DNA of 64,000 bases from Morinoia aosen (taxonomy: Eukaryota > Arthropoda > Malacostraca > Amphipoda > Talitridae). The stretch covers positions 25,721,360 to 25,785,359 of the forward strand of contig CM059562.1 in the NCBI GenBank assembly GCA_030386875.1, read 5' to 3'. The position numbers and the translations under genes are program-made. Below the pieces are notes generated by a model. It did not search any database, was not told where the DNA came from, and saw nothing but the letters and a program-made list of their open reading frames with translations. This document shows positions 3,273 through 57,278 of the stretch, one piece after another. Within the stretch, counting starts at the first letter, position 1, and each line of letters begins with the position of its first letter.

Positions 3273-3600
3273 CAGTTAGTCTCTAGCCACAATAGCCATA
3301 ACGAAGGTGTTTAGTGTTAACGGAACGGGGAATCTTTGCACAAGACGTGTTTCTACACAAGATCGCCTGTGCACAGAAACTCTAAGTTAGAAAGAGAGTT
3401 TATGGAACTAAAAAAAAAAGTCGAAGCAGAAAGGAATAGGGGGTGAAAAACAGCACAGCATTGAACAGAAAGCATGCATGGTCCGAAGAAATTATTCTAT
3501 TTAAACATAAAGAAGGCCTACCTAACATCCAACTCAAGACCTAGCATTTTCCCTAGGAGCACCAAATCACATAAATACAATAATTGTGTCCCCATGAGGA
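3273..3600 (-). mobile_element. A-type retroposon, copy A1 (old, long form)
   Basis: Diverged copy of the A family. Shared landmarks in order on the plus strand are CTCTAGCCACAAT, GGGGAATCTTTGCACAAG, the long-form spacer ending GCACAGAAAC, GTGAAAAACAGCACAGCATTGAAC, GAAGGCCTACCTAAC and ACAATAATTGTGTCCCCATGAGG. It retains the roughly 20-nt spacer that younger copies have lost. No target duplication is visible. An open frame across it is a by-product. Confidence 0.6.
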
Positions 3601-8908: not shown

Positions 8909-9265
8909 TTAGATTAGATAAGCCTAGTTAGATTTCCCAAACCACCACGAAGGTGTTCCGAAGGGAGAAATGAGGAAAGCATCATTAAGTACAGAATTAA
9001 GACTAAGGTGAATTCATGAACAAGGCGAGTCCCACACCCTGTGTATGGCAAGACTGAAATAAGTTTATGAACTCAGACGAAAGTTGAAGGAGAAAATTAA
9101 CAGGCGCTGATGGACAGTAGTGAACCGAAAAAAGATGGTCCGTAACAAAACAAAAACCAATTTTATTTCAACAACTCAACCTCAGTCCTTCCCAAGACTA
9201 AATTTTACAAATCTAACCTCACACATTCTTCCCTGAAGCGTTAATTCTCATATAGTGCATGTATA
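8909..9265 (-). mobile_element. A-type retroposon, copy A2
   Basis: Begins with GATTAGATAAGCC and CCACGAAGGTGTTCCGAAGGGAG. Good match through GACAGTAGTGAACCGAAAAAAGATGGTCCGTAACAAAACAAAAACC. The element 5' part (right side here) is strongly diverged: CCTCACACATTCTTCCCTGAAGCGTTAATTC. Confidence 0.6.
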
Positions 9266-9637: not shown

Positions 9638-11649
9638 CACTAAGTCTTCAGTCGTCTCGAATTTGAATTCACCAAGCCATCCCTTTTGTAACAGACCGAT
9701 ATTTAACTTTTCAAATGTATTTATTTCTGATGCTCTCATTCTGTCACATGATAAATTTCTAACACCCTCTGAATACTATTAAAAATATCACAACGGGATG
9801 GCATGAGCAAACATTTTCTTTATTCTGCATGTTTAAATATCAGCATGTGTCGTCTGATTTTTTCGTATGAATAATCACCACCACGCACAACCTGATTTCG
9901 TGCGATCCGATTGCATCACTCGGTGACGGAAGCCAAAATTCTGGTTACGAGACTGCAGGTCTTCTGATAATTAGGGCCGGCCGCACTAGGGCAGCTGTAT
10001 TTGTAAACAGAGGGGGTAGGATTTGTGTCGGACCCAGTGTGTGCCACACCACACGTCGGCCCACATAAACCACACACCCCATCCTATCTGTGAATAATCA
10101 TATCAACCTGTACGCCACCATCCATCCCGCCCCGCATTGTGTTTATCTTCAACCAAACAATTCTTGGTTTGTTTTAATGTCCTGAAAGACGAAATTTTAC
10201 AAGTTCGACGATGAAACCTTGCTATTCCAACGCACTAAATCTCTTTGATTCCTAGAGTAAAAATTACTTTCATATAAACTGTACAAATTTATGAAATCAA
10301 ATCGCATTCAATAGATTCGCCTCACTTGCAGAGCTGCGTTTTTGTAGTGTATGGAAGCGTTTTGAGAGAGATATCTGCGTGAGCACGCGGCTGTAACAGT
10401 TCTTAATTGCAGGCCTCAAGAGGAAATTATATCAGCAATTGCCTCCTTCATGAATTAACTCGAAGAATTACCACAACTGCATCTCTTATCGTGTCCTAAA
10501 AGAGAGGGGAGCTTGAAAGAAATTTGTTTATTTGAATACAAGCGGATTATTTCAGTAATTTACCTTAAAATTTAAAAACATGTCATTTCCTTGTTATGGT
10601 CACAAGGTATCATACTTCTCATTGTACCTCAACGCTATACCTCGAAAATAATTTGAAATGTTCACACCTGTGACGGTAGATGTAAAAATAAAACGTGACG
10701 CATTCTCAAACGTCTCTCTCGAAATTGATGAATTACGATAAAATTAAAAATCCGAACTGCTGCGCTCTTAAAATTATACTTCTCGATAATTTTAAAAGGA
10801 AATACTTACCTTGAATTTTGAAATAACATGAACTTATAATTGATATTGTGCTATGTCGTACACGCGAACTGAATTTTTATGTTGAAAACTATTCAGAGCT
10901 TTTCAGAGACTTCTTCCTCCTTTTCTGAGAATCTCTGAGTGCTACTCGTCATAACTCGACGTCACAAGCACCATCCAGCTGTACAAAACCGTGCATTTTG
11001 AGTCCGTATTACCCCACGTTCATGAGGAAGCAAGGCAGGCCAGCGTCCAGAGCACAGAGGGCCCCTCATTAGGCCGTCTGCATTTAGACGACTTGCTTTA
11101 CTTTTTAGAGCGGACCCAACCCTTAATTAGGGCCCTTCATTTCAAGCCCACCAGCATAAATTGGAGAGAAGGATTTAAGCATTCGCCTTCAACAACATTA
11201 TAATCAACAAGACTAAGTGTTTTCAAGTCGTTTAACCCTTAAGTTTTACGGTTTTGTTTTCAAAGTTTATGCACACTCAGCGACCACAGATGGAGGCAAA
11301 ACTATTACAAAAAAAATTAACTTCTGAGCTGAATATGAGAAAAAGCGGGCAAATGAAAATTTATGCAATTTCGTAGCATCATTCAAATCTTCTAATTAAC
11401 GGCACGTGTATACATAAAAATGCATACAGTTATATTTTTGTATGCATCCGCTCTTACGACTGAAGAGCAATGATTTTTCATGTAATCGATCAAGAGCATG
11501 CAGACTTTCAGCTAGTTATTGAAAACTTCTTATTGATATCGGAGAAATGTTCTTAGATGTTTTGATGTAAGGAATGAATGAATTGCAGCCGCTCATCAAT
11601 ATTGACAGCTAACGGACGTTTTCTCGTTTACTCAGATTAGATTTGAAAA
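9638..11649. other. No recognised gene; GC-rich patch at 9975-10135
   Basis: Mostly AT-rich. The patch around 9975-10135 (GGGCCGGCCGC, CCACACCACACGTCGG, CCATCCCGCCCCGC) stands out in base composition but has no ORF or known motif. A 70-codon plus-strand frame at 10991-11203 has no recognised domain. Confidence 0.4.
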
Positions 11650-12018
11650 GTTAGTAAAATCTCCCTAACAGCAACAAAGACGTTCCAAAGAGAATAAGGA
11701 GGAAGTCATCAGTTTCTCTGGACCGTAAGGAACGCGGAATCTATGCACAAGGTGAGTTTTCACTTAAGACCCCTGCGCATAGAAACATTGAGTTGGGAAA
11801 GAAGTCCATGAAACAAGATAAAAGATGAAAAAGAAAGTAGTAGGTGCTGAAAAACAGGACAGCAGTGAACCGAAACCGAAAAACGGAGTTCCGTAACAAA
11901 ACAAAAACTTATTATTTTCCAACTAAAGGAAGGTCTACCTAACCCTCAGCTCGAGACGTCACATTTACACTCTCGGATTGCAAATTCACATAGATACAAT
12001 AATTGTACCTCACGGGGG
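11650..12018 (-). mobile_element. A-type retroposon, copy A3 (long form)
   Basis: Full-length-like copy, from TTAGTAAAATCTCCCTAAC to ACAATAATTGTACCTCACGGGGG. It has the long spacer after GCACAAGGTG. First of four A copies in the same orientation within 1.8 kb. Confidence 0.7.
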
Positions 12019-12190
12019 TCCTCATTTACCCTTACAGGTAATGGAGATCTATGAGCGTCTTTGCGTATATCTGGTGATATATGATTGTTCTCTCTGGAAA
12101 TACGGAAATGCCGAAATGATGAAGAAATACCCCCAAATATTTTCTACAGTTTCGTTATCACGTTGTCTCCTTCCTCTCTCTGTAACATTT

Positions 12191-12558
12191 TGTTGCGGTT
12201 AGGGAGGCTTAAACTAACTTATAATCTAAACTAAAGAGAGGAAAGAGGAAGTCATTGTTTATTTGGGAGTCAAGGGAACGGGGAATCTATGCACAAGATG
12301 TGTTACAACACAAGATGCCTTGCGCACAAAAACCAGTTAAAAAGCCAGTTTATGAAAAAATTTCAAAGTTGAAGAAAAACGTAGTAAGTACTAATAAATA
12401 GGACAGCAGTGAACCAAAAAAAGAGGATCCGTAACAAAATAAAACACCTATTCTGTTTCAACAGAAGTAAGACTTACCAAACATACAACTCGGTACCTCG
12501 GGTCTTTTGTCTGGGAGCCTCAACTCCCATAGATAAAATAATTGTATCCCACAGAGGA
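12191..12558 (-). mobile_element. A-type retroposon, copy A4, with inverted 3' terminal piece
   Basis: The segment 12233-12558 runs in the usual orientation from AAAGAGAGGAAAGAGGAAG to TTGTATCCCACAGAGG. But 12195-12227 reads GCGGTTAGGGAGGCTTAAAC..., the reverse complement of the A 3' end. The terminal piece is therefore inverted, or belongs to a second truncated copy in the other orientation. Confidence 0.65.
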
Positions 12559-12570
12559 GGATTTTCGCCC

Positions 12571-12930
12571 ATTATTATTATTATATAAGAAATTTTTAGC
12601 CTCCCTTAACCACGACAAAGATGTTCCAAGAGAGGAAAAAGAAAAGCACCATTTAGTATGGAGTTGAGGGAACGTGGTATCTATGCACAAGGTGCACAGA
12701 AACAGTAAGCTAGGAAAGAAGTTCATGAAACAAGAAAAAGTTGAAGAAGAAAGTAGTAGGTGCTGAAAAACAGGACAGCAGTGAACCGAAAAAAGATGGT
12801 CCGTAACAAAACAAAAACCTATTTTATAACAACAAAAAGGAAGCCTACCTAACCTTTAGCTCGGGCCCACACATGGTTCCCCTGGGAGCGCTAATTCCCA
12901 TAGGTACAATAGTTGTATCCCCCTGAGAGG
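12571..12930 (-). mobile_element. A-type retroposon, copy A5 (short form) with 12-bp target duplication
   Basis: Flanked by GGATTTTCGCCC at 12559-12570 and 12931-12942, an exact 12-bp duplication. On the minus strand it ends in an (AAT)n tail (12571-12583 on the plus strand), as copy A12 also does. The young short form has GCACAAGGTGCACAGAAAC. The minus-strand frame at 12520-12726 is similar to one in A12 only because both lie in this repeat. Confidence 0.8.
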
Positions 12931-13110
12931 GGATTTTCGCCCAAACCAGTGCTTCATAGTGAGATACAGAATACTCGCAGATGGCAGCAAGACCCGTTTC
13001 TTAATGTGCTATGATTAATATTGAAATTACACATAACATGAAGCTTCCGCCAGTGGTATTTTACACTCCCTAAGTTAAGAGTCAATTCACAGTTGAAGCA
13101 CAGTATTAAG

Positions 13111-13464
13111 TTATTTTAAGCCTCTCTAACCGCTACAAAAAAAGAACGTATCGAAGAGAGGAAGGAGGAAGGCACCATTTAGTCTGGAGATAAGAGTATG
13201 GGGAATCTATGCAGAAGAGGCATAGGAACAGTAAGTTGAGAAAGCAGTTCATAAAACAAGATAAAAGTTTAAAAAGAAAATAGCAGATGCTGAAAAAAAC
13301 AGGGCAGCAGTGAACCGAAAAAAGGTGGTCCTTAACATAACAAAAAAATATTTTATTTCCACAAAAAGAAGGCCTACCTAACTGTCAGCTCGGGCCCTCA
13401 CACATTTACCCCCTGGGAGTGCTAATTCCCACAGATATAACAGTTGTATCCCCTGAGGGGAACT
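13111..13464 (-). mobile_element. A-type retroposon, copy A6 (short form) with target duplication
   Basis: Flanks CAGTATTAAG (13101-13110) and CAATATTAAG (13465-13474) match at 9 of 10 positions. The body runs from TTTTAAGCCTCTCTAACCGC to TATCCCCTGAGGGG. Confidence 0.8.
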
Positions 13465-17924: not shown

Positions 17925-18310
17925 ATTATAATATTATAAGTGAGTTTCAGCTACCCTTACCAGTTACCACAATCAAGATGTTCAAAGAGAGGAAGGGTGA
18001 AGGCACAATATAATACAGAGCTAAGGGAACGCAGAATCTCTGCACAAGATGCGTTTCCGCACAGGATCCCGTGTGCATAAAAACACTGAGTTGAGGAGGA
18101 AGGTTAGGAAACAAAACAAAACTTGAAGAAGAAAGTCAGAGTCGCTGACAGACAGGGCAGCAGTGAACCGAGAAAACATGGTCCTTAACAAAACAAAACT
18201 TTTTATTTCAACAAAAAATAGGCCTACTTAACTTTCAGCTCGGGACCCGAGATTTTCCCGTTGAGAGTGCTGATTCCGATAGATACAATAGTAGTATCCG
18301 CGTGAGGGGA
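17925..18310 (-). mobile_element. A-type retroposon, copy A7 (long form)
   Basis: Runs from TACCCTTACCAGTTACCACAAT to GTATCCGCGTGAGGGG. The long-form spacer GCACAAGATGCGTTTCCGCACAGG is present. It lies about 80 bp before the LINE C relic. Confidence 0.7.
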
Positions 18311-22705: not shown

Positions 22706-23131
22706 AAAAAATTTAAACAATTTAAACAATTTATTTACCACAGGTGATACAGAGGTAGAATTTTTCTTTCTTTAGTCTAGTACAATGGTCAAATTTGAGT
22801 ATAGCTACTTGTGGGCCCGAACAAGTTCAGCGACTTCTAGGGCATCCTACCATCACGTTATTTTAGGGTGTACAAAAATGTTCACTTAACCTAGTTTCGC
22901 ATTAGCCTGATCATCGAGATAATTAACTCGATATTTCATGCTGTATTTTACAATATAGGTCAAATCGTCTATATTTAACAGTATGTTTGATAAAACGATT
23001 CAAGAGCAGACAGAAGATTGGTTATGGTACCCAAGGCAAGTTACATTATGGCATTATCATTAGTTACATGTAGGAGGCAAGATTTTGACACAGTGATCTT
23101 ACACGACTAGTATTCTGATAGGAAGTGAGAC

Positions 23132-24494
23132 TCAAGATGTCTTTTGAATACTTAAATATTTGTACAAATTACATTCACGGATCTCTGCAGGTATAGAGTT
23201 CCAAGTTTTGGTTCCAACGAAAAGGATACTGTGTTGCGACCGGGCCTTTGAATAATAAGGAAGCATGAATTTACTTCTATTTCGGATTAAATGGTCGTGA
23301 TGACCAGTTTGCGCAGTCAATAATTGTCTTAGGCTATTGTCGCCATCATTTCTTAATGTTTTGTAAATGAAATTACAGATGGAGATTTTGTAGAGATCCG
23401 AAAGTTTAAGTATTTGTAAATTTTTGATAGAATCATTTGTGTGAGCATTATATTCTAGGTTCTTTACCGCTCTGACAGCTCTTTTCTGCAGAGTAATAAT
23501 TTTGTTGGTTTTATTTTTATCAGTTCCGTGCCATGCTTCTATTTCGTATTGCAAGTATGGAGAAATGAGCGTTCGGTAGAGCATTTGTGAAGCTGTTTCA
23601 GGCAGAAAATTTTCAACTTTATTCAGGATTCCGATGGATTTTGATAATTTAGAACTAATATGAGTGATGTGCTCTTTGAAGGTCAGATGTTTATCTATTA
23701 TGATGCCCAGAAACTTACATGAGTTGGTTTCTTCGATTTCACCTTCGCCAATTTTAATGTACGGGAGAGATACATCTTTCTTGTATGAGAATGTAATATA
23801 ATTTGTTTCATCAATATTAAGGCTTATTTTATTAGCTTTGAGCCACGATGAAACCTTGAGAAGTTCAGTATTTATACTCTCCACAATCATAGCAGGATTT
23901 TGGTTCGGAAGGACCGCAGAGGGCGTACTGTCATCGGCAAAAATTATGAATTTGAAGAATGATGTAGATTTTACAACATCATTGATAAAAATCAGAAACA
24001 TGAGAGGCCCAAGAATTAACTCGATATTTGCGCCTTGTGGAACTCCATGGCTAATTGCCTGTGGGTCTGATTTAGCGTCGTCAATGACAACGTATTGCTT
24101 GCGATTTGTTAGGTATGACCTGAACCAATCATGAGCAATCCCTCGAATGCCATAACAGTGTAGTTTCGAGAGTAGTATTTTATGGTCCACACAATCAAAT
24201 GCTTTTCGAAAGTCAAGAAATACAGAGAAGACAGGCTTTCCTTCATCTATATTAGAATAGAGGAATTGTAAATGATTTAATATGGCCTGTGTTGTTGATT
24301 TTTTAGAGCGAAAGCCGTATTGTTTATCGTAAAGAAATGATTTTTATTCAAAATAAGAGTACACTTTTTTATACACAATCTTTTCGAATACTTTGCTAAT
24401 AATTGGTAGAACGGAGATAGGTCGATAATTGTTTACACAGGTTTTTTCACCACTTCTAAAGATAGGGGTTACTCTAGCAACTTTGAGGGAGTTC
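23132..24494 (-). pseudogene. LINE D reverse transcriptase
   Basis: The 352-codon frame (24190-23132) has GVPQGANIELILGPLMFLIFINDV, with an insertion after GVPQGA relative to the usual GVPQGSxLGP. FADD lies near 23930-23945 and SFADD-type catalytic Asp residues are kept. The C-terminal part has FLGIIIDKHLTFKEHI and LISPYLQYEIEAWHG, usual for Jockey/CR1-like elements. Upstream, 24494-24190 carries NNYRPISVLPIISKVFEK, then an in-frame stop near 24345, then KQYGFRSKKSTTQAI and FSVFLDFRKAFDCVD. It is dead because of the stop, frame breaks and the A insertion. Confidence 0.85.
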
Positions 24495-24509
24495 GGGAAA
24501 GTGCCTAGT

Positions 24510-24790
24510 TAGTTTATTAGTTAGTTTAAGCCTCCCTATCCTCAACAATGAGATGTAAAGAGAGGAAGGAAGAAGGCACCATTTAGTATGGAGTTAAGGG
24601 AACGTGGAATCTATGCAGAAAGGGCACAGAAACAGAAAGCTAAGAAAGAAGTTTATGAAACAAGAAAAAGTTGAAGAAGAAAGTTGTAGGCGGTGAAAAA
24701 CAGGACAGCAGTGAACCGAAAAAAGATGGTCCGTAACACAACAAAAACCTATTCTATTTTAACAAAAGAAAGCCTACCTAACCTTTAGCT
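24510..24790 (-). mobile_element. A-type retroposon, copy A8, with perfect 15-bp target duplication
   Basis: Inserted in the LINE D reverse transcriptase. GGGAAAGTGCCTAGT is found at 24495-24509 and 24791-24805, exact. The copy is 281 bp and lacks the last ~90 bp of the consensus on the right. Because truncation is on the right and the A/T-rich tail is on the left, the element runs on the minus strand (5' truncated, 3' tailed). This copy best defines the family's mode of insertion. Confidence 0.9.
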
Positions 24791-24862
24791 GGGAAAGTGC
24801 CTAGTAAGAGAGACTGGTTAACAATATTTGATATCAGCGGGGCTACAATGTCAGCAATAACT

Positions 24863-26160
24863 TTAATTAAGTACTTTAGTCGGAAACGTTTGTAACCCAC
24901 TCGATTTATTATTCATGTTGTTTATGCACGTAATTACATCGGAGTTTGTAGGCGTAAAGAAAAAGGAGTTGGGTTCTCGAATATGATCCTTAAATTCCAG
25001 GTGATCAGTAGGTTCACTTGGAATACCATCAGCTATAGTTTTCCCTACGTTTACGAAGAAGTTGTTAAAGAGATTAGCAATTTCTTTCTTCTCATGGTAT
25101 TTTACATCATCTTGAATAGCATGTTCAATTTTCTTTTTATCGGCATTATTCGATTTACAGCAAGAGTTAAGGAGATGCCAAGTCTTTATAACGTCAGTTT
25201 TGAATTGAGTAAACTTGAGCGTAAAGTAGTTCTTTTTTGATGTTCTTATCTGGTTTGTTACATAGTTTCTGAATCGGTTATATGTTTCTCTAGATATTCG
25301 CCCTTCGCAAAGGAGGGCTAGGTACGCTTGACGTTTCTTTATATTTATCACGATGTCTCTAGTATTCCAGGGCTTTTGTTTATTTTTCGGGGTAACTGTA
25401 CGAGTTACAATTCGGCAACACTGATTGTATGCGGTCATTATAGTTTCAGTCAACTTTACTACTGCTTCATCAATGCTCGTAGCATTATTGTTTTGTTGAG
25501 AGATGTGCAATGTAGGCATTGATTCTTCTAGAACGGTGCGCATTTCTTCAAGATTTAATTCGTTTATTTTACGATATGAGTAAATTTCAGCCCGTGCCTT
25601 GGTGCAAGCAATATAGACATTTTTCTTAATAAGAAAAACTGGGAAGTGATCTGATAAGTCAGAAGTAATTATTCCAGCAATAAAATCACTTGGGTTTGTC
25701 ATAAAGATATTGTCAAGCAGCGTAGCACACTCTGAGGTTATTCGTGTAGGCTTTGTAATGATCGGAAGAAAGGATTGAGACTGAAAGGTTGTTAGGAAAT
25801 TAGAGATTGGTTCATAGCTTTCATGTTTCAGTAGATCATAATTGAAGTCACCGCATATTATTATGTCATTGTATAAGGGCCTGTTGAACTGAGAAATAAT
25901 ACGACTCAGCTCATTCAGGAAGGATATAGGACAGGCTGTAGGAGGCCTATACACCGTTCCAAGCACAATGCGTTTACCATCTCTAGACAGTTCTACGAAG
26001 AGTGATTCTATATGATCCTGATTCATTGTTGCACTTGCTATGGTTCTCGAGTCTATGTGGTTAGATATATATGTGCTGATGCCTCCGCCCCGCTGGTTTT
26101 TTCTTAGCGAATGGTAACTATGATAATTTTCAAATCGAATCATGTCTTTAGTCGAGTCAT
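24863..26160 (-). pseudogene. LINE D endonuclease and linker
   Basis: The long minus-strand frame carries an apurinic-type endonuclease from about 26155: RGGGISTYISNHI, FVELSRDGKRIVLGTVYRPP, IIICGDFNYDLL (GDFN near 25842-25853) and SDLSDHFPVFLI (SDHFPV near 25640-25657). These are catalytic motifs of the LINE endonuclease. The N-terminal part with the first catalytic Asn/Glu is missing through 5' truncation; the residues of this frame upstream of 26160 are antisense LINE E, not real. The linker ends with a stop at 24863 before the reverse transcriptase. Confidence 0.85.
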
Positions 26161-26164
26161 CTGT

Positions 26165-26695
26165 TAAGGATAGTATGGAAGAAGAAGTGAGGGATCGAGT
26201 GAGTGAAGGCTGTAAGACATTGCGTGCAATGAGGAAAGTTTTTGAATGCAGGAGTTTGAGTGTGAATGCCAAGAAGGGACTGTATGAAAGCTTGATTGTG
26301 CCAGTTTTGTTGAATGGAGCAGAGTCCTGGGGGTTGAGAGCACCTGAGAGGAGGAAGTTGGATGTGTTTGAGATGAAGTGTTTGAGGAGCATGTATGGAG
26401 TAACAAGAAGAGGTAGGATCAGGAATGAGTTGGTTAGGGGGCAGACGGGTGTTATCAAAAAGTTGAGCAGGCGAGTAGATGAAAGAGTGCTCGGATGGTT
26501 TGGGCATGTTGAAAGAATGAATATTGAGCGACTGGTGAAAAAGATATATATGTCGGAAGTGGTAGACGAGGTAGACCACGGATGAGTTGGATGGATGGGG
26601 TGAATCGTGTTTAGTATGAGAGGGGTCTGACTGTGGACGTGGCGAGAGGGATGACTGCGGACAGAAGTGAGTGGAGGCAGTGCATAAGAAGGTAA
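26165..26695 (+). pseudogene. LINE E ORF, segment 3 (C-terminus)
   Basis: Resumes at KDSMEEEVRDRVSEGCKTL, followed by GLYESLIVPVLLNGAESWGL, KLDVFEMKCLRSMYGVTRRGRIRNE and LGWFGHVERMN. This is the conserved C-terminal region of RTE-like LINE proteins found after the palm and thumb. After a frame change the end RPRMSWMDGV and RSEWRQCIRR is readable to about 26692. It confirms that LINE D inserted into a contiguous LINE E. Confidence 0.8.
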
Positions 26696-26705
26696 TTTTA
26701 TTTTT

Positions 26706-27000
26706 GGTGCTCGCGATAGCCGTGTGCTATAGGTTCCGCCGCCGTGCGGCCGGGACCCGGGTTCGAAACTCGGCGCTGGCAGTGGCGATTTTCTCTGTTG
26801 GGTATAGGAGAAAAATTCCAAGCACAATACCCCACTCTACCCAGGTGTCGGAAATGGGTACCGGCTTTACGGGGGAACCGTCATGGTGTCCTATATGTAG
26901 GGTTAGTTATAAGGCATTTGAAAATCCAATGTACAAGGTGATATGTATCAGGCTTGATTGGAAATAAAGCATCCGTAGATGCCTTCATTATTATTATTAT
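26706..27000 (+). mobile_element. tRNA-derived SINE
   Basis: The head GCTCGCGATAGCCGTGTGCTA... followed by GGGTTCGAAACTC (26759-26771) resembles the A and B boxes of a class II tRNA (Leu or Ser type). The body follows and the 3' end is a short (TTA)n run at 26986-27000. TTTTATTTTT occurs at 26696-26705 and 27001-27010, a possible 10-bp target duplication though low complexity. It sits between the LINE E ORF and the LINE E 3' UTR. The 98-codon frame over it is not a gene. Confidence 0.6.
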
Positions 27001-29555: not shown

Positions 29556-30780
29556 ATGAAATCAGAGGTGAAACGCTTTTGATCGTCTACACGTACATTG
29601 AAATGTGAGCTTTGGCTTTCGTGATATCAGAGAATTATGTTGAAAGGGTTTGTAGATAATTTATATTCAGAACTAAAAGGTTGCAATAGCAGGATTTTAC
29701 AAATATTTTTTCGTGCAAGCACAACAAGTAGAACTAAGTTTACTGCCTCAAAGAACATGCTTTAAATCCACATTAAATTTATGATATTTCTTAATTAAAT
29801 GCTTGCCAATAATACAAGGAAGTGACGCATAAGGTAACGTGACTAGTTGATAGTTAATAAAAAACATCTGGCATTTGTAGCACATATGTAAGTTGCTAGG
29901 TTAGCAATTTTGCAGAAACTGATTTACGTATACATATATGTATGAAAATATTAGCAAACAAGCAATCACGTCGCATACGCACACTACAAAAATGTAGTGT
30001 AATGCAGTAAAATATATTGAAATGCACAAATAATGAGCGAGATAGATTTGTAGATTCGATTAGATTTTTAAGCCTCCCTAACCTCTGAAAAAAGCGTTCC
30101 GAAGAGATGAAGAAGGAAGGCTCCATTTAGGATGGAGATAAGGGAACGCAGAATCTATGCAGGAGTATAGAAGCAGAAAGTTGAGAAAAAGTTCATGAAA
30201 CAATATAAAAATTGAAGAAGAAAGTAGTAGGTGCTGAAAACAGGACGGCATTGAACCGAGAAAAGATGGTCCTTAACATAATAAAAAAACATTTTATTTC
30301 AACAAAAAGAAAGCTTACCTAACTCTCAGCTCGGGCCCTCACACATTTTCCCCATGGGAGCGCTAATTCCCATAGATACAATAGTTGTATCCCCCTGAGG
30401 GGAAAGAAATTCGCAACTACTTTTTCAGTATGTAGTGCAACATGCAATTATTGTTGAGACGCAAAATGACGTGCAATTTCATTCGTAAATTCTTTCATGG
30501 TGTGAATGATTTTGATACTCCGCGAAGATTATTCCACAGAAAGGCGCCCGATACTGACAGAGCTTTCTGCCCAATCTCAGATGAGCGGTAGTTGACAAGA
30601 CATTATTTCTACAGTTCGGACTTCGGTTTGTTACAGTGGGGGAGATATAGGGAGATTTAAATAATGAAATTTTAAGCTTTACGAGTGAGAAGTCTTTCTT
30701 GAATAGGAATCCAGCCGATTTTATTCAGAAGTGTTGTATGATCCTCAATGGTCACTGTATTGAAGCACACCACCATGAAA
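29556..30780 (-). mobile_element. LINE C relic, copy C2, interrupted by A9
   Basis: 30403-30780 is similar to the end of the reverse-transcriptase frame of C4: ATTATTCCACAGAAAGGCGCCCGATACTGACAGAGC, GGAATCCAGCCGA. 29556-30049 matches the 3' UTR of C4 and C3 (AATGAGC, GGAAGTGACGC-like and ACATATGTA words). A9 lies between. Strongly decayed, no frame left. Confidence 0.55.
30050..30402 (-). mobile_element. A-type retroposon, copy A9 (short form)
   Basis: Runs from TTTTTAAGCCTCCCTAACCTC to TTGTATCCCCCTGAGGGG. Well preserved. It splits C2, where the uninterrupted C3 sequence reads AATGAGCAAAGGAAGTTCG, so the insertion point is within that site. The target duplication is not clear. Confidence 0.8.
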
Positions 30781-32315: not shown

Positions 32316-32634
32316 ATTAGATTACATTAGATATTAGTTCAAGTCTCCCTAACCACAACAAAGGCGTTCTAAAGAGAGGAAAGAGGAAGTCACGATTTAG
32401 CATGAAAAAGATGAGAAAGAAGTTCATGAAACAAGATAAAAGTTGAAGAAGAAACTAGAAGGTTTTGAAAGATGGGACAGTAGCAAACCGAAAAAGATCG
32501 TTCATAACAGAATAAAATACTTATTCTTATGCAACACTAAAAAAAACTCCTTAACCTCTAGCTCGGTAGGTACCTCACACATTTCTGGGAGCGCCAATTC
32601 ACATAAATAGAATAGTTGTATCCTCCCAGACAGT
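32316..32634 (-). mobile_element. A-type retroposon, copy A10, internally deleted
   Basis: Flanks GAAGAATGAGAG (32304-32315) and GAAGAATGAAAG (32635-32646) match at 11 of 12. The body lacks the GGAATCTATGCA region (an internal deletion after CACGATTTAGCATG) and ends TTGTATCCTCCCAG. Confidence 0.75.
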
Positions 32635-36327: not shown

Positions 36328-37816
36328 CAGGGTGTTTCAAAAATACACGGCATAATTTCAGGTATGTATTTCCCACATGTAGACAATCAAAATAGTTCAT
36401 TACAACATATGTCCGGAAATGCTTCATTTCCGAGTTATGGCCTTCACAACATTGAAATTCACCGGAACGTTTTTCTTTCCGCAGGTCGTTGCCGTCAAAG
36501 GACACATTAAGAGGGCACTCTGACAGATCATTCCTAGGCGAAGGTTAAATTCAGTGTTGTGTTTGGCGTTCGACTGTGTGTCATGTACACAAATCAGGAG
36601 CTGGCAGAGATGCACTTGATCTACGGTAAGGCAGACGGCAATGCTGCGCTGGCTCGTCGTTTGTACCAGGAGAGGTACCCACAGCGACAATGTCCAGATT
36701 GGAAGACATTTGTAAGTCTCCATCAGCGTCTGTGCGAGTATGGAAAATTTGACTCTCCTGGATTGGGAAGGGGACGACCAAGATCTACAACTCCAGAAGA
36801 ACAGGAGGAGATTCTGGAGATTGTGAACAGAACTCCTTCTATCAGCACACGAAGGTTAGCGTTGCAAGTGAATGTTCCCCATACGACTGTCTGGAGACTG
36901 CTGAAAGAGTATCAATTGTATCCTTACCATTTGCAACGTGTACAGGCGCTGTCACCAGCAGATTACCCTGCACGAGTTAGGTACTGTCAGTGGTTCTTGC
37001 AGCAATGTGCTGCAAATCCGAACTTTCCTGCCTTAGTATTATTTACAGATGAAGCACAGTTCACACGAGATGGCATAACAAATCTCCACAATCAGCATGT
37101 ATGGGCGTATGAAAACCCAAATGCAACTGTTGTATCTCATCACCAGGTGCGGTTCTCCCTCAACATGTGGGCCGGTATCATTGGTGATCGGTTAGTTGGA
37201 CCCCATGTACTTGTAAACAGACTTACGGGGCAGGCGTACACAAACTTCCTGGAAAACATCATACCTGATGTTTATGACGACACTCCACTGATCGATCGTC
37301 AGCACGCTCACTTCTTGCATGACGGCGCTCCTGCACACTTCAGTCGTACGGCTCGCCGGTACTTGGATCGAAGATTTCCTGATCGATGGATAGGTAGAGG
37401 TGGCCCAATTGCTTGGCCTCCACGCTCACCTGATCTGAACCCTCTCGATTTCTACTTGTGGGGCCATTTAAAATCATTGGTTTATTCGTCTCCGGTGCCT
37501 GATTTGGAATCCCTTCGGAATCGAATTGTGGCACGCTCTGAGGACATACGCAACATTCCTGGAGTGTGGGAGCGTGTTCGCAGGTCAATGAGACATCGAT
37601 GTGAGGTCTGTATTCAAGCAGGAGGTGGTCATTTTGAACATCTTCTGTAATGGCAACGACCTGCGGAAAGAAAAACGTTCCGGTGAATTTCAATGTTGTG
37701 AAGGCCATAACTCGGAAATGAAGCATTTCCGGACATATGTTGTAATGAACTATTTTGATTGTCTACATGTGGGAAATACATACCTGAAATTATGCCGTGT
37801 ATTTTTGAAACACCCT
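36328..37816 (+). mobile_element. Mariner-family (DD41D) transposon with perfect 165-bp inverted repeats
   Basis: Left TIR 36328-36493 begins CAGGGTGTTTCAAAAATACA; right TIR 37652-37816 is its exact reverse complement over 165 bp, base for base. Only the outermost G of the right end is lacking, and the TA on the left (36326-36327) has no partner on the right. The TIRs flank one intact ORF whose stop codon abuts the right TIR. The identity of the two arms and the open frame indicate recent activity. Inserted in the hAT element. Confidence 0.95.
36559..37650 (+). CDS. Mariner/Tc1-superfamily transposase, DD41D type
   Basis: A 363-residue protein that cuts and pastes the surrounding element by binding its terminal repeats and using a metal-dependent RNase H-fold core. 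Residues about 10-60 (MYTNQELAEMHLIYGKADGN...) match the helix-turn-helix DUF4817 module common in arthropod transposases. A GRPRS hook at about 72-76 and a second HTH (ISTRRLALQVNVPHTTVWRLL, about 95-115) follow. Catalytic Asp are D164 (LFTDEAQF), D255 (LHDGAPAHF) and D297 (SPDLNPLDFYLW): 41 residues lie between the second and third, so DD41D, the rosa/VS-like spacing, rather than Tc1 DD34E. No stop or frameshift. Met-9 (36583) is an equally good start and fits the family better. Length is normal for the family. It appears complete; whether it is expressed cannot be told. Confidence 0.95.
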   Translation: MFGVRLCVMYTNQELAEMHLIYGKADGNAALARRLYQERYPQRQCPDWKTFVSLHQRLCEYGKFDSPGLGRGRPRSTTPEEQEEILEIVNRTPSISTRRLALQVNVPHTTVWRLLKEYQLYPYHLQRVQALSPADYPARVRYCQWFLQQCAANPNFPALVLFTDEAQFTRDGITNLHNQHVWAYENPNATVVSHHQVRFSLNMWAGIIGDRLVGPHVLVNRLTGQAYTNFLENIIPDVYDDTPLIDRQHAHFLHDGAPAHFSRTARRYLDRRFPDRWIGRGGPIAWPPRSPDLNPLDFYLWGHLKSLVYSSPVPDLESLRNRIVARSEDIRNIPGVWERVRRSMRHRCEVCIQAGGGHFEHLL

Positions 37817-38655: not shown

Positions 38656-39018
38656 TTAGATTAGATTAGTCGTTAGTTTTAGCCTCCCTACCGGCAGCAA
38701 CAAATACGATCCAAAGAGAGGAAGGAGGAAGGCACCATTTAGTATGGAGTTAAGGGAACGCGGAATCTATGCAGAAAGGGCATAGAAACAGTAAGATAAG
38801 AAAGAAGTTCGTGAAACAAGATCAAAGTTGAAGAAGAGAGTAGTAGGTGATGAAAAAACAGGACAGCAGTGAACCGAAAAAAGATGGTTCTTAACATAAC
38901 AAAAACATTTTATTTCAACAAAAAGAAGGCCTACCTAACTCTCAGCTCGAGCCCTCACATTATCCCCCTCTGGGAGCCCTAATTCCCATAGATACAATAG
39001 TTGTATCCCCCTGAGGGG
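38656..39018 (-). mobile_element. A-type retroposon, copy A11 (short form)
   Basis: On the plus strand it begins TTAGATTAGATTAGTCGTTAG, the reverse of its A/T-rich 3' tail, and ends CCCCCTGAGGGG. Target duplication GCGAGCTGAA is seen at about 35422 and 39020, now separated by the hAT element that landed in the left copy of the duplication. Inserted in B3. Confidence 0.85.
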
Positions 39019-47216: not shown

Positions 47217-48417
47217 CAGGGTTGGCACATAAAAAACACACCCAAAAAAAAACACCCAAAAAAGCCCAAAAAAACCCACGTAAAAAAACACTAAATAGTG
47301 GGGTTTTCTGGGCTTTTTTGGGTTTTATTAGTGCTATTTAAATTTCACTTGTTTTCAAGCTTATAGAATCAAAATGAGCTAAATATTTATTTTGTCTAAA
47401 ATTTGTCCAAGGCATTTGCATGACTATGACAATAAATATTCTAAAACAAAAAAAAAACACCACTATAAAAATAAAATAAGAAAAACCTTAATTACAAAAA
47501 AAAATTCGAGGGACTAGTATATTTCCATGAGTTCCATTTCCAAAGTAAAAAACAAAAACTATGAAACAAATTCAGTTTGACTATTTGAGAATATAGAGAC
47601 TTCTGAATTCTTCCTCTGTCTTCAAGACTAGACTGCTACTACAGTACTACTGTGTTTCTCTTTCTACATCCACTGCCATTTCATCGTTGCCACCCATATC
47701 GTGATCATTTGTGAGGTGGCAATATAATGAGACCAATTTCTGTGCGCGTTACGATCCTAATCTATTTCTCAGTTTATTCTACACAATTCCAAATGTTGAG
47801 AAAATTCTCTCATTATTATTTTTATTATTATTATTATTATATAAGAAAGTTTTAGCCTCCCTTAACCACGACAAAGATGTTCCAAGAGAGGAAAAAGGAA
47901 GGCACCATTTAGTATTGAATTGAGGGAACGTGGAATCTATGCACAAGGTGCACAGAAACAGTAAGCTAGGAAAGAAGTTCATGAAACAAGAAAAAAGTTG
48001 AAGAAGAAAGTAGTAGGTGCTGAAAAACAGGACAGCAGTGAACCGAAAAAAGATGGTCCGTTACAAAACAAAAACCTATTCTATTTCAACAAAAAGGAAG
48101 CCTACCTAACCTTTAGCTCAGGCCCTCACATAGTCCCCCTGGGAGCGATATTGTTCATATGTAATAATTCATATAATAATGTAACATAATGTTGGAGATA
48201 AAGTAATCAAATAAAAAAATTTACTCAATAAGTGTATGTATATAAATCTGGAAAAGAGACAACTGGAGCTGTGTGAATAACTCTTTTAAACAAATTGGTA
48301 TTACAAAAAAAACAATAAAGCCCAAAAAAAACAATAAAACCCCCCAAAAAAATTTAACCCAAAAAAAACCACGTGGGTTGTTTTTTTTTTAAAAACCCAG
48401 GGATTTTTCCATCCCTG
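47217..48417 (-). mobile_element. hAT transposon, second copy, with perfect 8-bp target duplication
   Basis: Starts CAGGGTTGGCACATAAAAAA and ends GATTTTTCCATCCCTG. ATTATCAC is duplicated exactly at 47209-47216 and 48418-48425. 47217-47810 is closely similar to 35437-36030, and 48148-48417 to 38366-38647. The middle is replaced by A retroposon A12. A minus-strand ERIFSTFGIV motif at about 47782-47812 marks the transposase dimerisation region, so the transposase runs on the minus strand here too. Confidence 0.9.
47811..48147 (-). mobile_element. A-type retroposon, copy A12, inside hAT copy 2
   Basis: Starts with (ATT)n ATATAAGAAAGTTTTAGCCTCCC, the same (AAT)n-type tail as A5, and ends at CCCCCTGGGAGCG, missing about 50 bp of the element 5' end. 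hAT sequence resumes at ATATTGTTCATA. No target duplication, so an internal hAT deletion accompanied or followed the insertion. Confidence 0.85.
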
Positions 48418-50193: not shown

Positions 50194-50227
50194 TAAATGC
50201 CCAACAATAATAAAGTGAAATGAAGTA

Positions 50228-50597
50228 GATTATAGATTATAAGATTAAAAGTTAGTTTAAGCCTCCCTAATCGCTTCAAAAATAGAGCGTATCGAAGAGA
50301 GGAAGGAGGAAGGCACCATTTAGAATGGAGATAAGAAAATGAGGAATCTATGCAGAAAGGGCATAGAAACAGTAAGATGGGAAAGAAGTTCATGAAATAA
50401 GATAAAAGTTGAAGAAGAAAGTTAGAGGTGCTGAAAAACAGGACAGTAGTGAATCGAAAAAAGTTGGTCCTTAACATAACAAAAAACATTTTATTTCAAA
50501 AAAAAGAAGGCCTACCTAACTCTCAGCTCGGGCCCTTACATTTTTCCCCTGGGAGCGCTAATTCCCATAGATACAATAGTTGTATCCTCCTGAGGGG
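50228..50597 (-). mobile_element. A-type retroposon, copy A13, full length, perfect 14-bp target duplication
   Basis: AGTGAAATGAAGTA flanks it at 50214-50227 and 50598-50611. At 370 bp it is the best full-length reference: on the minus strand 5' CCCCTCAGGAGGATACAAC ... 3' GGGAGGCTTAAACTAACTTT followed by an A/T-rich tail (TAATCTATAATC-like). No ORF that is conserved between copies and no clear pol III A/B boxes. Confidence 0.9.
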
Positions 50598-50611
50598 AGT
50601 GAAATGAAGTA

Positions 50612-52735
50612 TGACGTAGTGACACCCTCGCCCATCTACGCACGCATAGCGTGCACACGTACACATATACACAAGTAAGCATATGGGCAGATATCAGCTT
50701 AAACTAGTCAGTATCAACTAGCATTTCAATCGAGGGACTCTGAGAAAATATCTTTTATTACGGCATGAATTTTATGAAATTTCCGTACTAAAAATAGTGG
50801 CACAAAACAGTCTACCTGAGTCAGAAACATGAAAACGATTGTTCTACAACGGTTCCCACGTACAGAATATTTCCAGAAATACGTGAAACTTAGTTGCGGT
50901 CGCTATAATATACTCTAAAACGTAAGAGATGATATGATAATTTGCATTACACTAGCATAACAAGAGCATTCTTGGACGTGAATAAGAAAGAAAACATGAA
51001 TGTCCTATAAGGTTTCATATTAGAAAAAAATCACATTATCTTTGAAATATGGCAAAAATGTCTGCAATTGATAAACATACATAGGTACCACATTTTACAT
51101 GAACAAGACATTTAAGCTTTGGATTGCTTGACAATAATAAAATGAAATGATATGTTGGGTAGTGTTAGAAGTTGGGAGTGAGAAAAAAGGCTGGTATTTA
51201 TAGTTTATATACCAGTAGCTAGTCCAGTGCACAGAGGTGTATGGGCACATATGCACATCCATATGCGCTCATACACCCATATACGTACATACATATACAA
51301 GTAAGCATGTTTGCAAATCCTAGCGTATAGACGATCAAATCATAATACCTACGCAAAATTGTTGTGTGATGTCTTGAATTATGAAAAATGAGCAAGGCAG
51401 AGTATTCAGCAATGGAGATACAAGGCAAATGAGATTCGTCAATACGTGTTCAGTATGTTCTGTAACTAAGAATTATCGTTGAGATGCAAGATGACGAATT
51501 ATTTTGGCTTTAAATTCTCTCGGTCTGAGGGATTTTAATACTCATGGGAAGTTTGTTCCACAGTAAGGCACCTGATATTGACAGAGCCTTCTGCCCTATG
51601 TGAGATGAACGATAGTTGACTAAGACATTGTTTTTGTTCGGCTTTTGGTTGGTTACAGTGGGTGGATGGTAACGCACTATCTCAGCATTGCTCTGAGGAA
51701 GATACAACGAGGAGAATACGTATTGGGCCCTCTGCATGAGGAGCCTTTCTTGAATAGGAATCCAGCCGAGTTTATTAAGGAGAGGGGTTACGTGATCACT
51801 TCTTTTGAAATTACCGTTGCATACCACCTTGGCTGCGAAGTTCATGCATTTTTGTAAATCCCTTTGAAGGTATTGAGGTATGTCTCCCCATACTAGGCTG
51901 CAGTAGTCAATGCGCGATAACACCAGGGATTGAATGGTTAATAATATGGATTTTTCGTCTAGCATACTTTTTATACGATGAGAAGACATTAAAGTTCCGT
52001 AAATTTTGTTGCAAGTATTCTCAACGTGAGATTTAAAGGATATGTTTCTATCGAACCAGATACCTAGGTTTTTAACTTTTTCCGGTGTCTTAATTTTATC
52101 ATTTCCAACTGCAAAAGTATGATCTCAAGTTTTTTGCATTGTGTTTTATTAGCATTTAATTTGAGACCACTTCGGTCATACCATGATTTCAGGCTAGTCA
52201 GTACAGTTTCGGCTTTAATTTGCGTCTGTGGTATTTCCGATACAGAACTTGTTATTGGAATTTGAACAACATCAGCATACATTGAGATCCGTGTGTTAGA
52301 AGGCATTATAGGGAAATCATTAATGAAAAAAGAAAACAGTAGCGGACCAAAAATGGATCCTTGGGGAACACCAAAATTGTTTTGAATGAATGGGGAAAAT
52401 TTGTTTTCTTTGCGGACTGCATGAGATCGATTTGACAAATAACTCTCAAACCATTGCGTGTATACTCCCAAGTTCAGTATTTTACGTAGAAGTTTATCAT
52501 GTTCGACGCTATCGAACGCTTCAGAGAGATCGAGTAGCAGCAAGAGTGCTACATTCTTTTGATCGATGTCACAGTATATTTTTTCACAGATATTGAACAG
52601 AGCGTCTTGAGTGCTAGTGTTTCTTCTAAAGGCGTATTGATTTCGGTGGAGTAGATTTGACTCGTCCAGGTGAAATGACAATTGATTTGTCCCAACTTTC
52701 TCCAATATGTTGATAATAATTTATAGGAGCGTAGA
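50612..52735 (-). mobile_element. LINE C, copy C4 (5'-truncated, with reverse-transcriptase relic)
   Basis: Minus-strand LINE. The coding relic (52705-51510) begins inside the fingers region, so the 5' end with endonuclease is missing. The 3' UTR extends below 51500 and contains CA/TA-rich microsatellite-like stretches (CATATGCACATCCATATGC). 50612-50720 may be a further partial UTR copy. Related 3' ends are C1, C2 and C3. Confidence 0.75.
51510..52705 (-). pseudogene. LINE C reverse transcriptase relic (Jockey/CR1-like)
   Basis: The first frame (52705-52064) carries HRNQYAFRRNTSTQDALF, LLLLDLSEAFDSVEHDKLL, FGVPQGSIFGPLLFSFFINDFP and MYADVVQI. The catalytic YADD is changed to YADV, so the second palm Asp is lost. 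The second frame (51989-51510) is the C-terminal region: LVLSRIDYCSLVWGDIP, LGWIPIQERLLMQRA, GALLWNKLPMSI. A frame break near 52060 separates them. The layout fits CR1/Jockey-type LINEs. The element is dead, but this region is the best coding sequence for the LINE C family here. Confidence 0.85.
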
Positions 52736-52739
52736 AAAG

Positions 52740-54682
52740 ATGTCTCAATGTGTATAGTGAAGTTTATCGTAAAAAACACGTTACACCCAATTTATATACA
52801 ATTTATATACAATACAGTCCCGAATTAAGAAAACGAGCTGTATATAAACACACGATAAATATTTTGCTGCGAAAATTGTTAACCTAGAACTTGCAAATTA
52901 AAAATACAGGGTAAAGGCTTTAGATTCAACATCCGACACTAGCACATAGTGATGAGCACAACTAAGCAACGCTGAAAACGTCATGGTCAAGTTTCGAATG
53001 ACACTGAATTGTGTTTTTGAAAGTTAATTGATATGGAGAACTTTTGAAGAGCATATATTTAAGATCCATGATATCGTTGAAAAACGAAACACAGATATAG
53101 GATGTGCGTGATACAATTGAAGTACAGTCTAAATTAAGGCAATGCAAATGAAAAACAAAGCTCTCAAATTCACAATTTTACAACGTCAGCTCGTGTCAGT
53201 TCGTAATTAGGAGAGTGAAACAGAAAAACTCAATAAACCTAACAGCACAGCGTGCACACAATTCATGTTTTATGTGATGGTTCCTATATTTTCTCCCACC
53301 GATGCCGTACCATTTGTAATAGTTTCTTGGTGGTGATCGCAGTCTTATTGGTTTTCTCGTTATCGTCCTTTCCATGTCTTTAATTACTGCCAACATTTCG
53401 TGATTTAAATTTCGTGAGTACATTATTCCTCACAATTCTTTTATTTTCTAATCACTATTAATCATGATAGCTTTCAATGCTGCCACCAGCCACTTGGGCA
53501 AAGAATATTTATATTTATAAGACATGTTAATTTAAGATATCGGTTAAGCGTTTTGGCAACGTAGCGGAAGGCATATTAATATAAGTACATAGCCGTATTT
53601 CTTGGCTTCGTGAAACAATCATTCCTTTTTATCATCATCATCTCCTCCTCCTCTCTTCCTCCTAATTACGGGGGGAAATTAAGGACACGATAGATCTAAA
53701 CATTTCACTATTGACAATAAAAGTAATCAAAAGTTATGAATTACATATCCTAATCGCTCGCATCCTATCCTACATACTTGAAGACCTGAAGGAGGGGACA
53801 TTATTACATGGTGGACATGGATTGATACTTAGCTGTGGTTCGACTGCTTTGTAGAGTGGTCCGGACTCCAGGCGACGGGCCGCCATTTTTTGTATCGCCC
53901 GAATCGACCGTTGTGGCGATGCTTAACTGACATTAAAGCAAGGTTTGCGGGTCACTTAATAGAATTTGGAAGCAAGGCACAATTACGTTCGCTATGAGGT
54001 GGTTATGTTTAAGTCCTCAATATATTTAGATAAAAGCACGCGCCTGGTCCGCGAGGACCAACGCAATTCGTTTCGTCGCAGCTCACACCTCTGTCAGTGG
54101 CATTCGGAGCCCCCCACCTAACTGATTCCCGTCCTCGAAGGCAACCCTCTCGCTGGCGCTATCGCCGCTTCTCCCCAGATGCCGACTAGCAATTACGATC
54201 TAATCAGATTGATATATGATAGGAAATTATTTCCTAAAACAATTTAAATACGCAGTTACTTACTCTCGTTGACATATTTATACTAACAATCCCCGCAAAT
54301 ATTATTAATAAGAAGTAAACATTACATAAGAGAAATCATTGGAGTTCCTGGCATCTTCTGTTGGGCTGTCGTTGTCCTCGAAGTCCAAGCGGAGATTCTT
54401 CCCGAAGGTATAGACGATTTGAAAGAATAGGCGATTTGAAGTGCTCCCACGTTGATACTCAGACTTAATATTGTTTGGTCTTTTAGAACCATTTAGGAAT
54501 ACGTCATTGGCCAGATAACGATTCCAGATTCTCAGCGATATTCCGTACACAGTCATGCGGAGAAGCATGACATTTAGGAGTTATTTGAAAAAACAGTATT
54601 GCCATTCCAGAGAGTTTCTGCGTCTTCTCAGGCATGTCATGATAGTATTTTCGTCCAGCAGCCCTCACTCATGCAGAGATAA
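52740..54682. other. No recognised gene; GC-richer patch at 54030-54190
   Basis: Mostly AT-rich. The GC-rich patch includes a small palindrome TGGTCCGCGAGGACCA (54045-54060) and a short open plus-strand frame near 54121-54246 without a recognised domain. Other short frames (53196-53423, 54305-54568, both minus) are unrecognised. Confidence 0.4.
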
Positions 54683-55106
54683 GATGATAGTTTGAGCCTC
54701 TTTAATCTCTACAATTTCGATCCAAAGAGAGGAAGGATGAAGTTACCATTTATGTGGCATAGAGTTAAGGGATCACGGAATCTATGCACAAGGTGTGTTC
54801 CAAGATGTCGTTGAAAATATATTTAAAAGAAAGACTATAAAACAAGATAAAAGTTGGAGAAGAATGTTAAAGGCATTGAAAACCAGGACAGCAGTGAAAT
54901 GAAAAAAATAATAGTTCTTAACAAAACGAAATACATATATTGCTCTAACAAAAAAGGCTAACTCTCAGCTCGGGATCACAATTTTTTCTATTGGAGCGCC
55001 AAATTCCAATGAGGGATACTGCAATAATTGTATCGTGGGGGGGACAATAATAGTAGTATCGCGGGTTGAGGGGGGGGACAACAAAGTTGTATACCTCTGG
55101 GGGGAC
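54683..55106 (-). mobile_element. A-type retroposon, copy A14, with tripled 5' end
   Basis: Long-form copy (GCACAAGGTGTGTTCC). At the right (element 5') side the terminal block is present three times in series: GCAATAATTGTATCGTGGGG, ACAATAATAGTAGTATCGCG and ACAACAAAGTTGTATACCTC, each followed by a G run. Other copies have one such block. Confidence 0.7.
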
Positions 55107-56917: not shown

Positions 56918-57278
56918 TTAGATTACAAGTTAATTAAAGCCTCCCTAACCGCTACAAAAATTAGCGTATCGAATAGAGGAAGGAGGAAGACACCATTGAG
57001 TATGGATATAAGGGAATGCGCAATCTATGCAGAAGGGGCAAAGAAACAATAAGCTGGGAAAGAAGTTCATGAAACAAGATAAATGTTGAAGAAGAAAGTA
57101 GTAGTCGGTGCTGGAAAATAGGACAACAGTGAGCCGAAAAAGGTGGTCCTTGACATAGCAAAAAATATTTTATTTCAACAAAAAGAAGGCTTACCTAACT
57201 CTCAGCTCGGGCCCTCACACATTTCCCCCTGAGAGCGCTAATTCCCAGAGATACAATAGTTGTATCCGCCTTAGGGGG
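56918..57278 (-). mobile_element. A-type retroposon, copy A15 (short form) with target duplication
   Basis: TGTCTAAATTTGTGA (56903-56917) and TGTCTATATATGTGA (57279-57293) match at 13 of 15. The body runs from TTAGATTACAAGTTAATTAAAGCC to TTGTATCCGCCTTAGGGG. Full length. Confidence 0.85.

Follow-up and report, generated by a model that had tools for sequence, protein, structure and literature searches.

The interval 50228-50597 of a 64,000-nucleotide stretch of the Morinoia aosen genome (hereafter the window) raises the question of how a short retroposon can multiply without a recognisable promoter of its own: a SINE may land anywhere, and a portable pol III promoter is for this reason considered necessary. 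The interval, on the minus strand, is a complete copy of a family designated SINE-A, with discrete ends: precisely a 356-bp non-coding body and its tail, flanked on both sides by exact 14-bp target duplications (Table 1). The unit runs from CCCCTCAGG ... to GGGAGGCTTAAACTAACT (356 bp), followed by a variable tail of TATAATC/TAATC units and then by the target duplication. An earlier note had described a short retroposon family of ~370 bp with a variable A/T-rich 3' tail in 15 copies. Body and tail of this kind are indeed found in many copies; in the window, 19 raw BLAST matches merge into 16 elements occupying 4,809 bp (7.5%), and a seven-query set yields 17. All but one of the 16 merged elements are on the minus strand, the sole exception being a 40-bp tail fragment (12188-12227).

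Table 1. SINE-A copies and associated features of the 64,000-nucleotide window
Feature	Position	Strand	Remark
SINE-A body, consensus 1-356, young copy, 5' end at 50597	50242..50597	-	97.5% to consensus
Variable 3' tail, TATAATC/TAATC units	50228..50241	-	from sequence
Target-site duplication at 5' end, AGTGAAATGAAGTA on + strand	50598..50611	.	exact 14 bp
Target-site duplication at 3' end, AGTGAAATGAAGTA	50214..50227	.	exact 14 bp
SINE-A copy nearest to older subfamily	12594..12930	-	exact 13-bp duplication
5'-truncated SINE-A copy within a LINE	24514..24790	-	exact 15-bp duplication
Full-length SINE-A copy	38663..39018	-	
Full-length SINE-A copy	56920..57277	-	
Full-length SINE-A copy	13107..13460	-	
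SINE-A copy, 5' end abutting LINE 3'-region fragment (30640-30403)	30067..30402	-	duplication not found
5'-truncated SINE-A copy	47840..48150	-	
Old SINE-A copy	17933..18309	-	73%
Old SINE-A copy	12234..12557	-	
Old SINE-A copy	11648..12007	-	
Old SINE-A copy	32326..32626	-	
Old SINE-A copy	54677..55034	-	
SINE-A fragment	9056..9174	-	
SINE-A fragment	3371..3599	-	
40-bp SINE-A tail fragment	12188..12227	+	sole + strand match
tRNA-type SINE, control, outside SINE-A family	26691..26990	+	A/B-box-like pair, ATT tail

The 1.99-Gb assembly (29 contigs) was searched for further copies, giving 7,407 first-look candidates, of which 40 were scored. A diagnostic 27-mer from the SINE-A head has 10,570 exact genome matches (5,215 forward, 5,355 reverse) as compared with 0 for the reversed control; these matches are therefore not due to chance, and at least ten thousand recognisable copies exist. 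Only two of the 17 window elements carry the 27-mer; scaled by this ratio, a rough one taken from a single window, the family may in truth number about 10^5 copies. The 3' end of an older subfamily occurs 2,272 times, and the core 24-mer of a tRNA-type SINE, used here as a control, has 5,668 exact copies. For closer study, 20 loci of 10 kb were sampled, each with one of the 40 best-scored copies; the selection of top-scoring copies means that this sample is not random.

The window and these loci (264 kb) contain 102 non-overlapping SINE-A matches, 66 of which extend to the 3' end. Exact duplications of at least 10 bp (median 14 bp, range 11-18) flank 28 of the 66 tail-bearing matches, compared with 0.5% in a mispaired-flank control. 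Among the 13 window matches reaching the 3' end, exact duplications of 13, 14, and 15 bp occur at 12594-12930, 50242-50597, and 24514-24790, respectively, and the remaining ten have 6 bp or less. The three exact duplications claimed previously are thus recovered, but the total of six or more was not reproduced and may include imperfect ones. Over half of the tail-bearing matches (36/66) begin within 3 bp of the query start, and 17 copies start inside the element with 5' flanks that differ from each other, bearing out the 5' truncations seen at first. The insertion point is T|T on the sense strand of the element: of 28 sites, 19 have T at -1 and 22 have it at 0, the left boundary being blurred because SINE-A tails end in AATCT; the target duplications are T-rich (45% T, 23% A; 28 sites). 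The median 14-bp duplications, variable tails, and 5' truncation agree well with the LINE-type target-primed integration that had been proposed. The family has been active recently; the 5' end is identical in all 22 young copies (>550 bits) of the window and the loci, and their sequences are nearly identical. With its short non-coding unit, discrete 5' end, and target duplications, SINE-A is a SINE in the wide sense.

To see whether it is also one in the strict sense, the first 200 bp were scanned for pol III boxes, with the tRNA-type SINE (26691-26990) as a control. The best A and B box pair in SINE-A has 7 mismatches, equalled or bettered by 472 of 500 shuffles, while the control has 4, equalled or bettered by 50 of 500. 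No recognisable A/B box pair was thus found in this region by a scan run alongside the control, which supports the earlier note in seeing neither evident pol III boxes nor a tRNA, 7SL, or 5S head. Rfam gave no convincing match for SINE-A at gathering or relaxed thresholds; as Rfam and ARAGORN also miss the tRNA-type SINE, their SINE-A negatives are weak. T runs terminate pol III, and SINE-A has seven runs of at least four T, the first at position 93. Since the control also contains three T runs (at 6, 11, and 99), one of them inside its body, this argument against pol III is supportive, not decisive. The first 52 nt of SINE-A have a predicted fold with a three-way junction, for which no clear compensatory changes were seen by eye in an alignment of 26 heads. 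Resemblance of the head to U1 and 5S was considered and dropped. With no recognisable A and B boxes or tRNA, 5S, 7SL, or snRNA head, SINE-A is not a SINE in the strict sense, and we infer that it is not transcribed by pol III. An AATAAA signal and both acceptor-like sites detected by a simple rule are on the sense strand only.

The earlier note had also considered a non-autonomous LINE derivative, and allowed that the consensus might extend into a longer coding element. We find no sign of such a continuation, either in the 22 young copies with their fixed 5' end or in the 17 truncated copies. LINE coding sequence lies upstream of just one truncated copy (24514-24790), and this is an insertion, as it has a 15-bp duplication and LINE coding sequence on its other side as well. 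When the 1-kb upstream pieces of the 17 were compared, six matching rows were obtained, whose distances from the junction differ and some of which are older SINE-A; no sequence is shared up to the 5' junction among the 17. As no LINE with this 3' end emerged from the places followed in the pattern searches either, descent from a LINE is so far unsupported. In all, the behaviour of SINE-A is that of a short retroposon mobilised by a LINE rather than of a fragment of some longer coding element. In the window, plus-strand LINE pieces at 21457-26836 are interrupted by a second, minus-strand LINE, whose open frames are separated by a truncated SINE-A.

No partner LINE sharing the 3' end or tail of SINE-A emerged from three exact-core pattern searches, in which part of the places were inspected; overall, they returned SINE-A subfamilies, insertions cutting SINE-A, and one unrelated repeat. 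The first pattern (23 places, 12 inspected) suggested new families with a common 3' end, a reading dropped when 6 of the 12 proved to be SINE-A cut by insertions; at one locus of this set, L034, SINE-A sequence lies upstream. Of ten places followed for the second pattern (39 places), nine are SINE-A copies, five from subfamilies 85-87% like the consensus and four old or divergent, and L055, where SINE-A is not found upstream, may be a very short truncated copy. A TGGAAC start at three second-pattern places belongs to old SINE-A copies and not to a LINE coding end. The third pattern (20 places) was rejected as mostly one unrelated repeat, with homology spanning the TATAATC stretch in the two places inspected. 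A search for reverse transcriptases gave 52,382 first-look candidates in the genome, 150 of which were scored. A possible junction is seen at the full-length copy 30067-30402, which starts exactly where a LINE 3'-region fragment (30640-30403) stops, with no duplication. A better copy of that LINE lies at 51510-52720, and no SINE-A is present at 51000-51800, the 801 bp that surround its 3' region. We take 30067-30402 to be an insertion with decayed flanks, though it is still the sole hint of a LINE link. We also note that the TTAA of the SINE-A GGCTTAAAC motif is itself an insertion site, duplicated around the insert in 6 of 12 loci (L035, L037-L040, and L045; locus positions ~656-1530); the inserts are ~233 bp in five, in either orientation, and ~851 bp in L037.

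The strand uniformity of the window recurs in the sampled loci. In the 17 of 20 loci with more than one copy, 50 of 53 neighbours are on the strand of the best copy (binomial 3e-12, copies treated as independent). In L018 and L021 a young copy has split an old element, and the second halves account for two of the 53, so the agreement is about 48/51. Strand is uniform in fifteen of the 17 multi-copy loci, the exceptions being L024, with two copies in the opposite orientation, and L027, with a single opposite match of 28 bp. For all pairs in the window and loci, agreement with rising distance is 20/25 (<0.5 kb), 25/29, 65/69, 42/49, 24/26, and 57/63, the last class being 20 kb and more and from the window only; concordance is thus not highest at the shortest range. 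Segmental or tandem duplication was rejected as its source, since comparison of 198 flanks did not reveal the sharing sought: there are nine same-side within-locus matches, eight of them between pieces <400 bp apart (split or nested) and the ninth between window fragments at 11648 and 32334, whose upstream sequence, by inspection, is probably older SINE sequence.

A test independent of the chosen loci used the first 100 listed 27-mer places, all on C1, where young copies are ~5 times denser at 10.6-16.2 Mb (74 of the 100) than at 0-10 Mb (26). Adjacent copies agree in 26/29 cases at <20 kb, 19/23 at 20-60 kb, 15/23 at 60-150 kb, 9/16 at 150-500 kb, and 4/8 at >500 kb, and the longest same-strand run, 24 copies within the denser region, was reached in none of 5,000 shuffles. 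For the older subfamily (75 places on C1, with 25 on C2 left out), the figures by rising distance are 5/5, 5/8, 7/10, 12/20, and 11/31, and older copies agree with the nearest young SINE-A within 50 kb in 11 of 12 cases. The first 100 listed places of the tRNA-type SINE on C1 show no orientation coherence (1/6, 5/11, 12/21, 13/32, and 12/29), nor does that SINE follow the SINE-A strand (13/28 within 50 kb; 1/7 against young copies within 20 kb). The effect is therefore specific to SINE-A, and neither an assembly artefact nor a general property of retroposons. One process that could orient copies over long distances is replication, if SINE-A tracked fork direction rather than transcription. A same-strand block on C1 extends over 1.6 Mb, and replicative strand asymmetry is described for human LINEs and SINEs (PMC10030826). 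Yet coherence weakens beyond 60 kb, nearer the scale of genes, and the genes themselves (below) are concordant in all five cases within 30 kb, making fork direction a very unlikely cause.

In the few host genes where the two could be compared, SINE-A copies are oriented in sense: this holds for all five genes at 30 kb or less from a copy (p = 0.03), two of them by proximity alone. In L020, minus-strand P4-ATPase exons flank a minus-strand young copy on both sides, and this copy is clearly inside an intron. In L029, a plus-strand P4-ATPase exon is 3.5 kb downstream of a plus-strand young copy, and in L022 a plus-strand CDK1 exon is upstream of one. Plus-strand kinase matches at C13:50,029,272 and 50,041,156 are on either side of the L022 copy, which is probably intronic; the second match is interrupted by three stops and covers part of the profile that the exon also covers, and its assignment to the same gene is unsure. 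Two plus-strand kinase exons, at C1:15,169,428-15,171,134 and C1:10,842,794-10,843,021, have copies on that strand at distances of 17 and 28 kb. A putative exon in L016, with an LSDREK motif, has the same direction as its copy; PDB search gave no identity, and it is uncounted. Six further exon matches whose nearest listed copy lies at 70-153 kb agree in 2/6 cases, as the decay of coherence would predict. This distance comparison used kinase matches (130 of 135) and ion-channel matches (39 of 79), with the scored and first- and second-pattern SINE-A places complete and the 27-mer and older-subfamily lists partial. The L020, L029, and L022 genes were identified by PDB sequence search from exons chosen by eye, a procedure that certainly overlooked others. 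With Pfam, the L020 exons had no P4-ATPase match and a further ten ORFs yielded nothing of use, and a PDB search of a few dozen ORF pieces (1,957 residues), from 466 selected by composition, found nothing.

As the insertion sites are T-rich, the bias could reflect target composition alone, if the endonuclease prefers T on the sense strand and the coding strands of introns are rich in T. In 17 of 21 loci, the SINE-sense strand of SINE-masked DNA is in fact T-rich, a skew that may in part represent undetected old copies. In the 17 clustered loci, a target matrix, built from the 28 sites in the same loci to which it was applied, finds 4,535 target-like sites in sense versus 2,055. This predicts 69% sense, whereas 94% is observed, and at an expectation of 70% the 50/53 would have a probability of about 1e-5, neighbours being treated as independent. 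Furthermore, L022 runs opposite to the expected direction (201 versus 242 target-like sites), yet its copies agree. We consider composition by itself an improbable explanation. L022 is a fourth exception to the T-rich rule; in the others, L017, L030, and L032, masked DNA is near-symmetric and none has a second copy, which suggests, from three loci, enrichment in transcribed domains and not only loss of antisense copies.

Such loss is the basis of a further explanation, in which insertion is strand-neutral and antisense copies are purged by selection, for example through exonisation or through dsRNA from inverted copies in one pre-mRNA. The decay of coherence over tens of kilobases fits transcription units, long duplexes would arise between near-identical inverted copies on a single transcript, and the tRNA-type SINE could escape duplex selection, having fewer exact core copies (5,668 versus 10,570). 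On the other hand, young copies are already concordant with old neighbours, the three symmetric loci hold no other copies rather than copies in both orientations, and duplex avoidance does not by itself predict sense orientation to genes. As the AATAAA and acceptor-like sites are on the sense strand only, ordinary selection should disfavour sense copies. It should favour antisense, as in mouse introns, where SINE variants likewise have an orientation bias relative to genes but only 41.6% are sense, a deficit attributed by the authors to selection against sense copies (PMC3446317). SINE-A, with ~94% local concordance and sense orientation in five genes within 30 kb, is opposite in direction to the antisense excess reported there. 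We regard purging of antisense copies as rather unlikely to be the main cause.

The sense-only signals and the empty symmetric loci lead us to prefer biased insertion, and with moderate confidence we favour sense-biased insertion into transcribed introns over the less probable selection. Taken as a whole, a LINE-mobilised retroposon with a non-pol III RNA and sense-biased insertion into transcribed DNA is the best explanation, to which we give a probability of roughly 0.55. SINE-A would then be a non-autonomous retroposon mobilised by a LINE via target-primed reverse transcription, its full-length RNA presumably made by pol II, either from an unrecognised promoter of its own or by read-through of host introns. 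Insertion itself, and not only survival, would be biased such that the SINE-A sense strand coincides with the coding strand of transcribed DNA, and a T-rich coding strand may help. In a bolder version, unlikely as a complete account, SINE-A has no promoter and lives off host transcription: its RNA would be excised from pol II introns, the LINE machinery would nick the template strand, and new sense copies would be transcribed again. If this were true, sense insertion would replace an internal promoter.

SINEs are generally short and non-coding, with target duplications, a short-repeat tail, and subfamilies, and in all these respects SINE-A resembles the classical ones. It is unlike those with a small-RNA head in that no pol III box pair or head was found, in its seven T runs, and in its strand coherence. 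SVA is a pol II-type non-autonomous retroposon, LINE-mobilised without a pol III head; SINE-A shares this but is much shorter, with no VNTR and no poly(A) tail. Nine tRNA-promoter SINEs are reported from Blattella germanica (PMC9191728) and the tRNA/5S-type SINEs HaSE1-3 from Helicoverpa (PMC3272025). No published description of such a family or of such a SINE orientation pattern was found among titles and abstract openings of mostly open-access literature. A very successful family without a recognisable promoter that faces along genes suggests sense landing and host-gene transcription as an alternative to a portable promoter. SINE-A also offers a natural test of the coupling between insertion and transcription, for which the second SINE of this genome provides the control.

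Other features were seen in passing. The window contains an open 370-aa Tc/mariner-like transposase ORF at 36538-37650. Elsewhere in the assembly, bacterial-type COX1 and ABC genes are crowded on C27 at ~55-73 Mb, and all 19 PF00005 matches are on C27, in bacterial-type sequence; the region is probably contaminant or symbiont DNA joined into one scaffold. Several COX1 copies with in-frame TGA are present on C28, C29, and C26, the C28 copy being open in the invertebrate mitochondrial code, and these are apparently mitochondrial contigs and nuclear copies.
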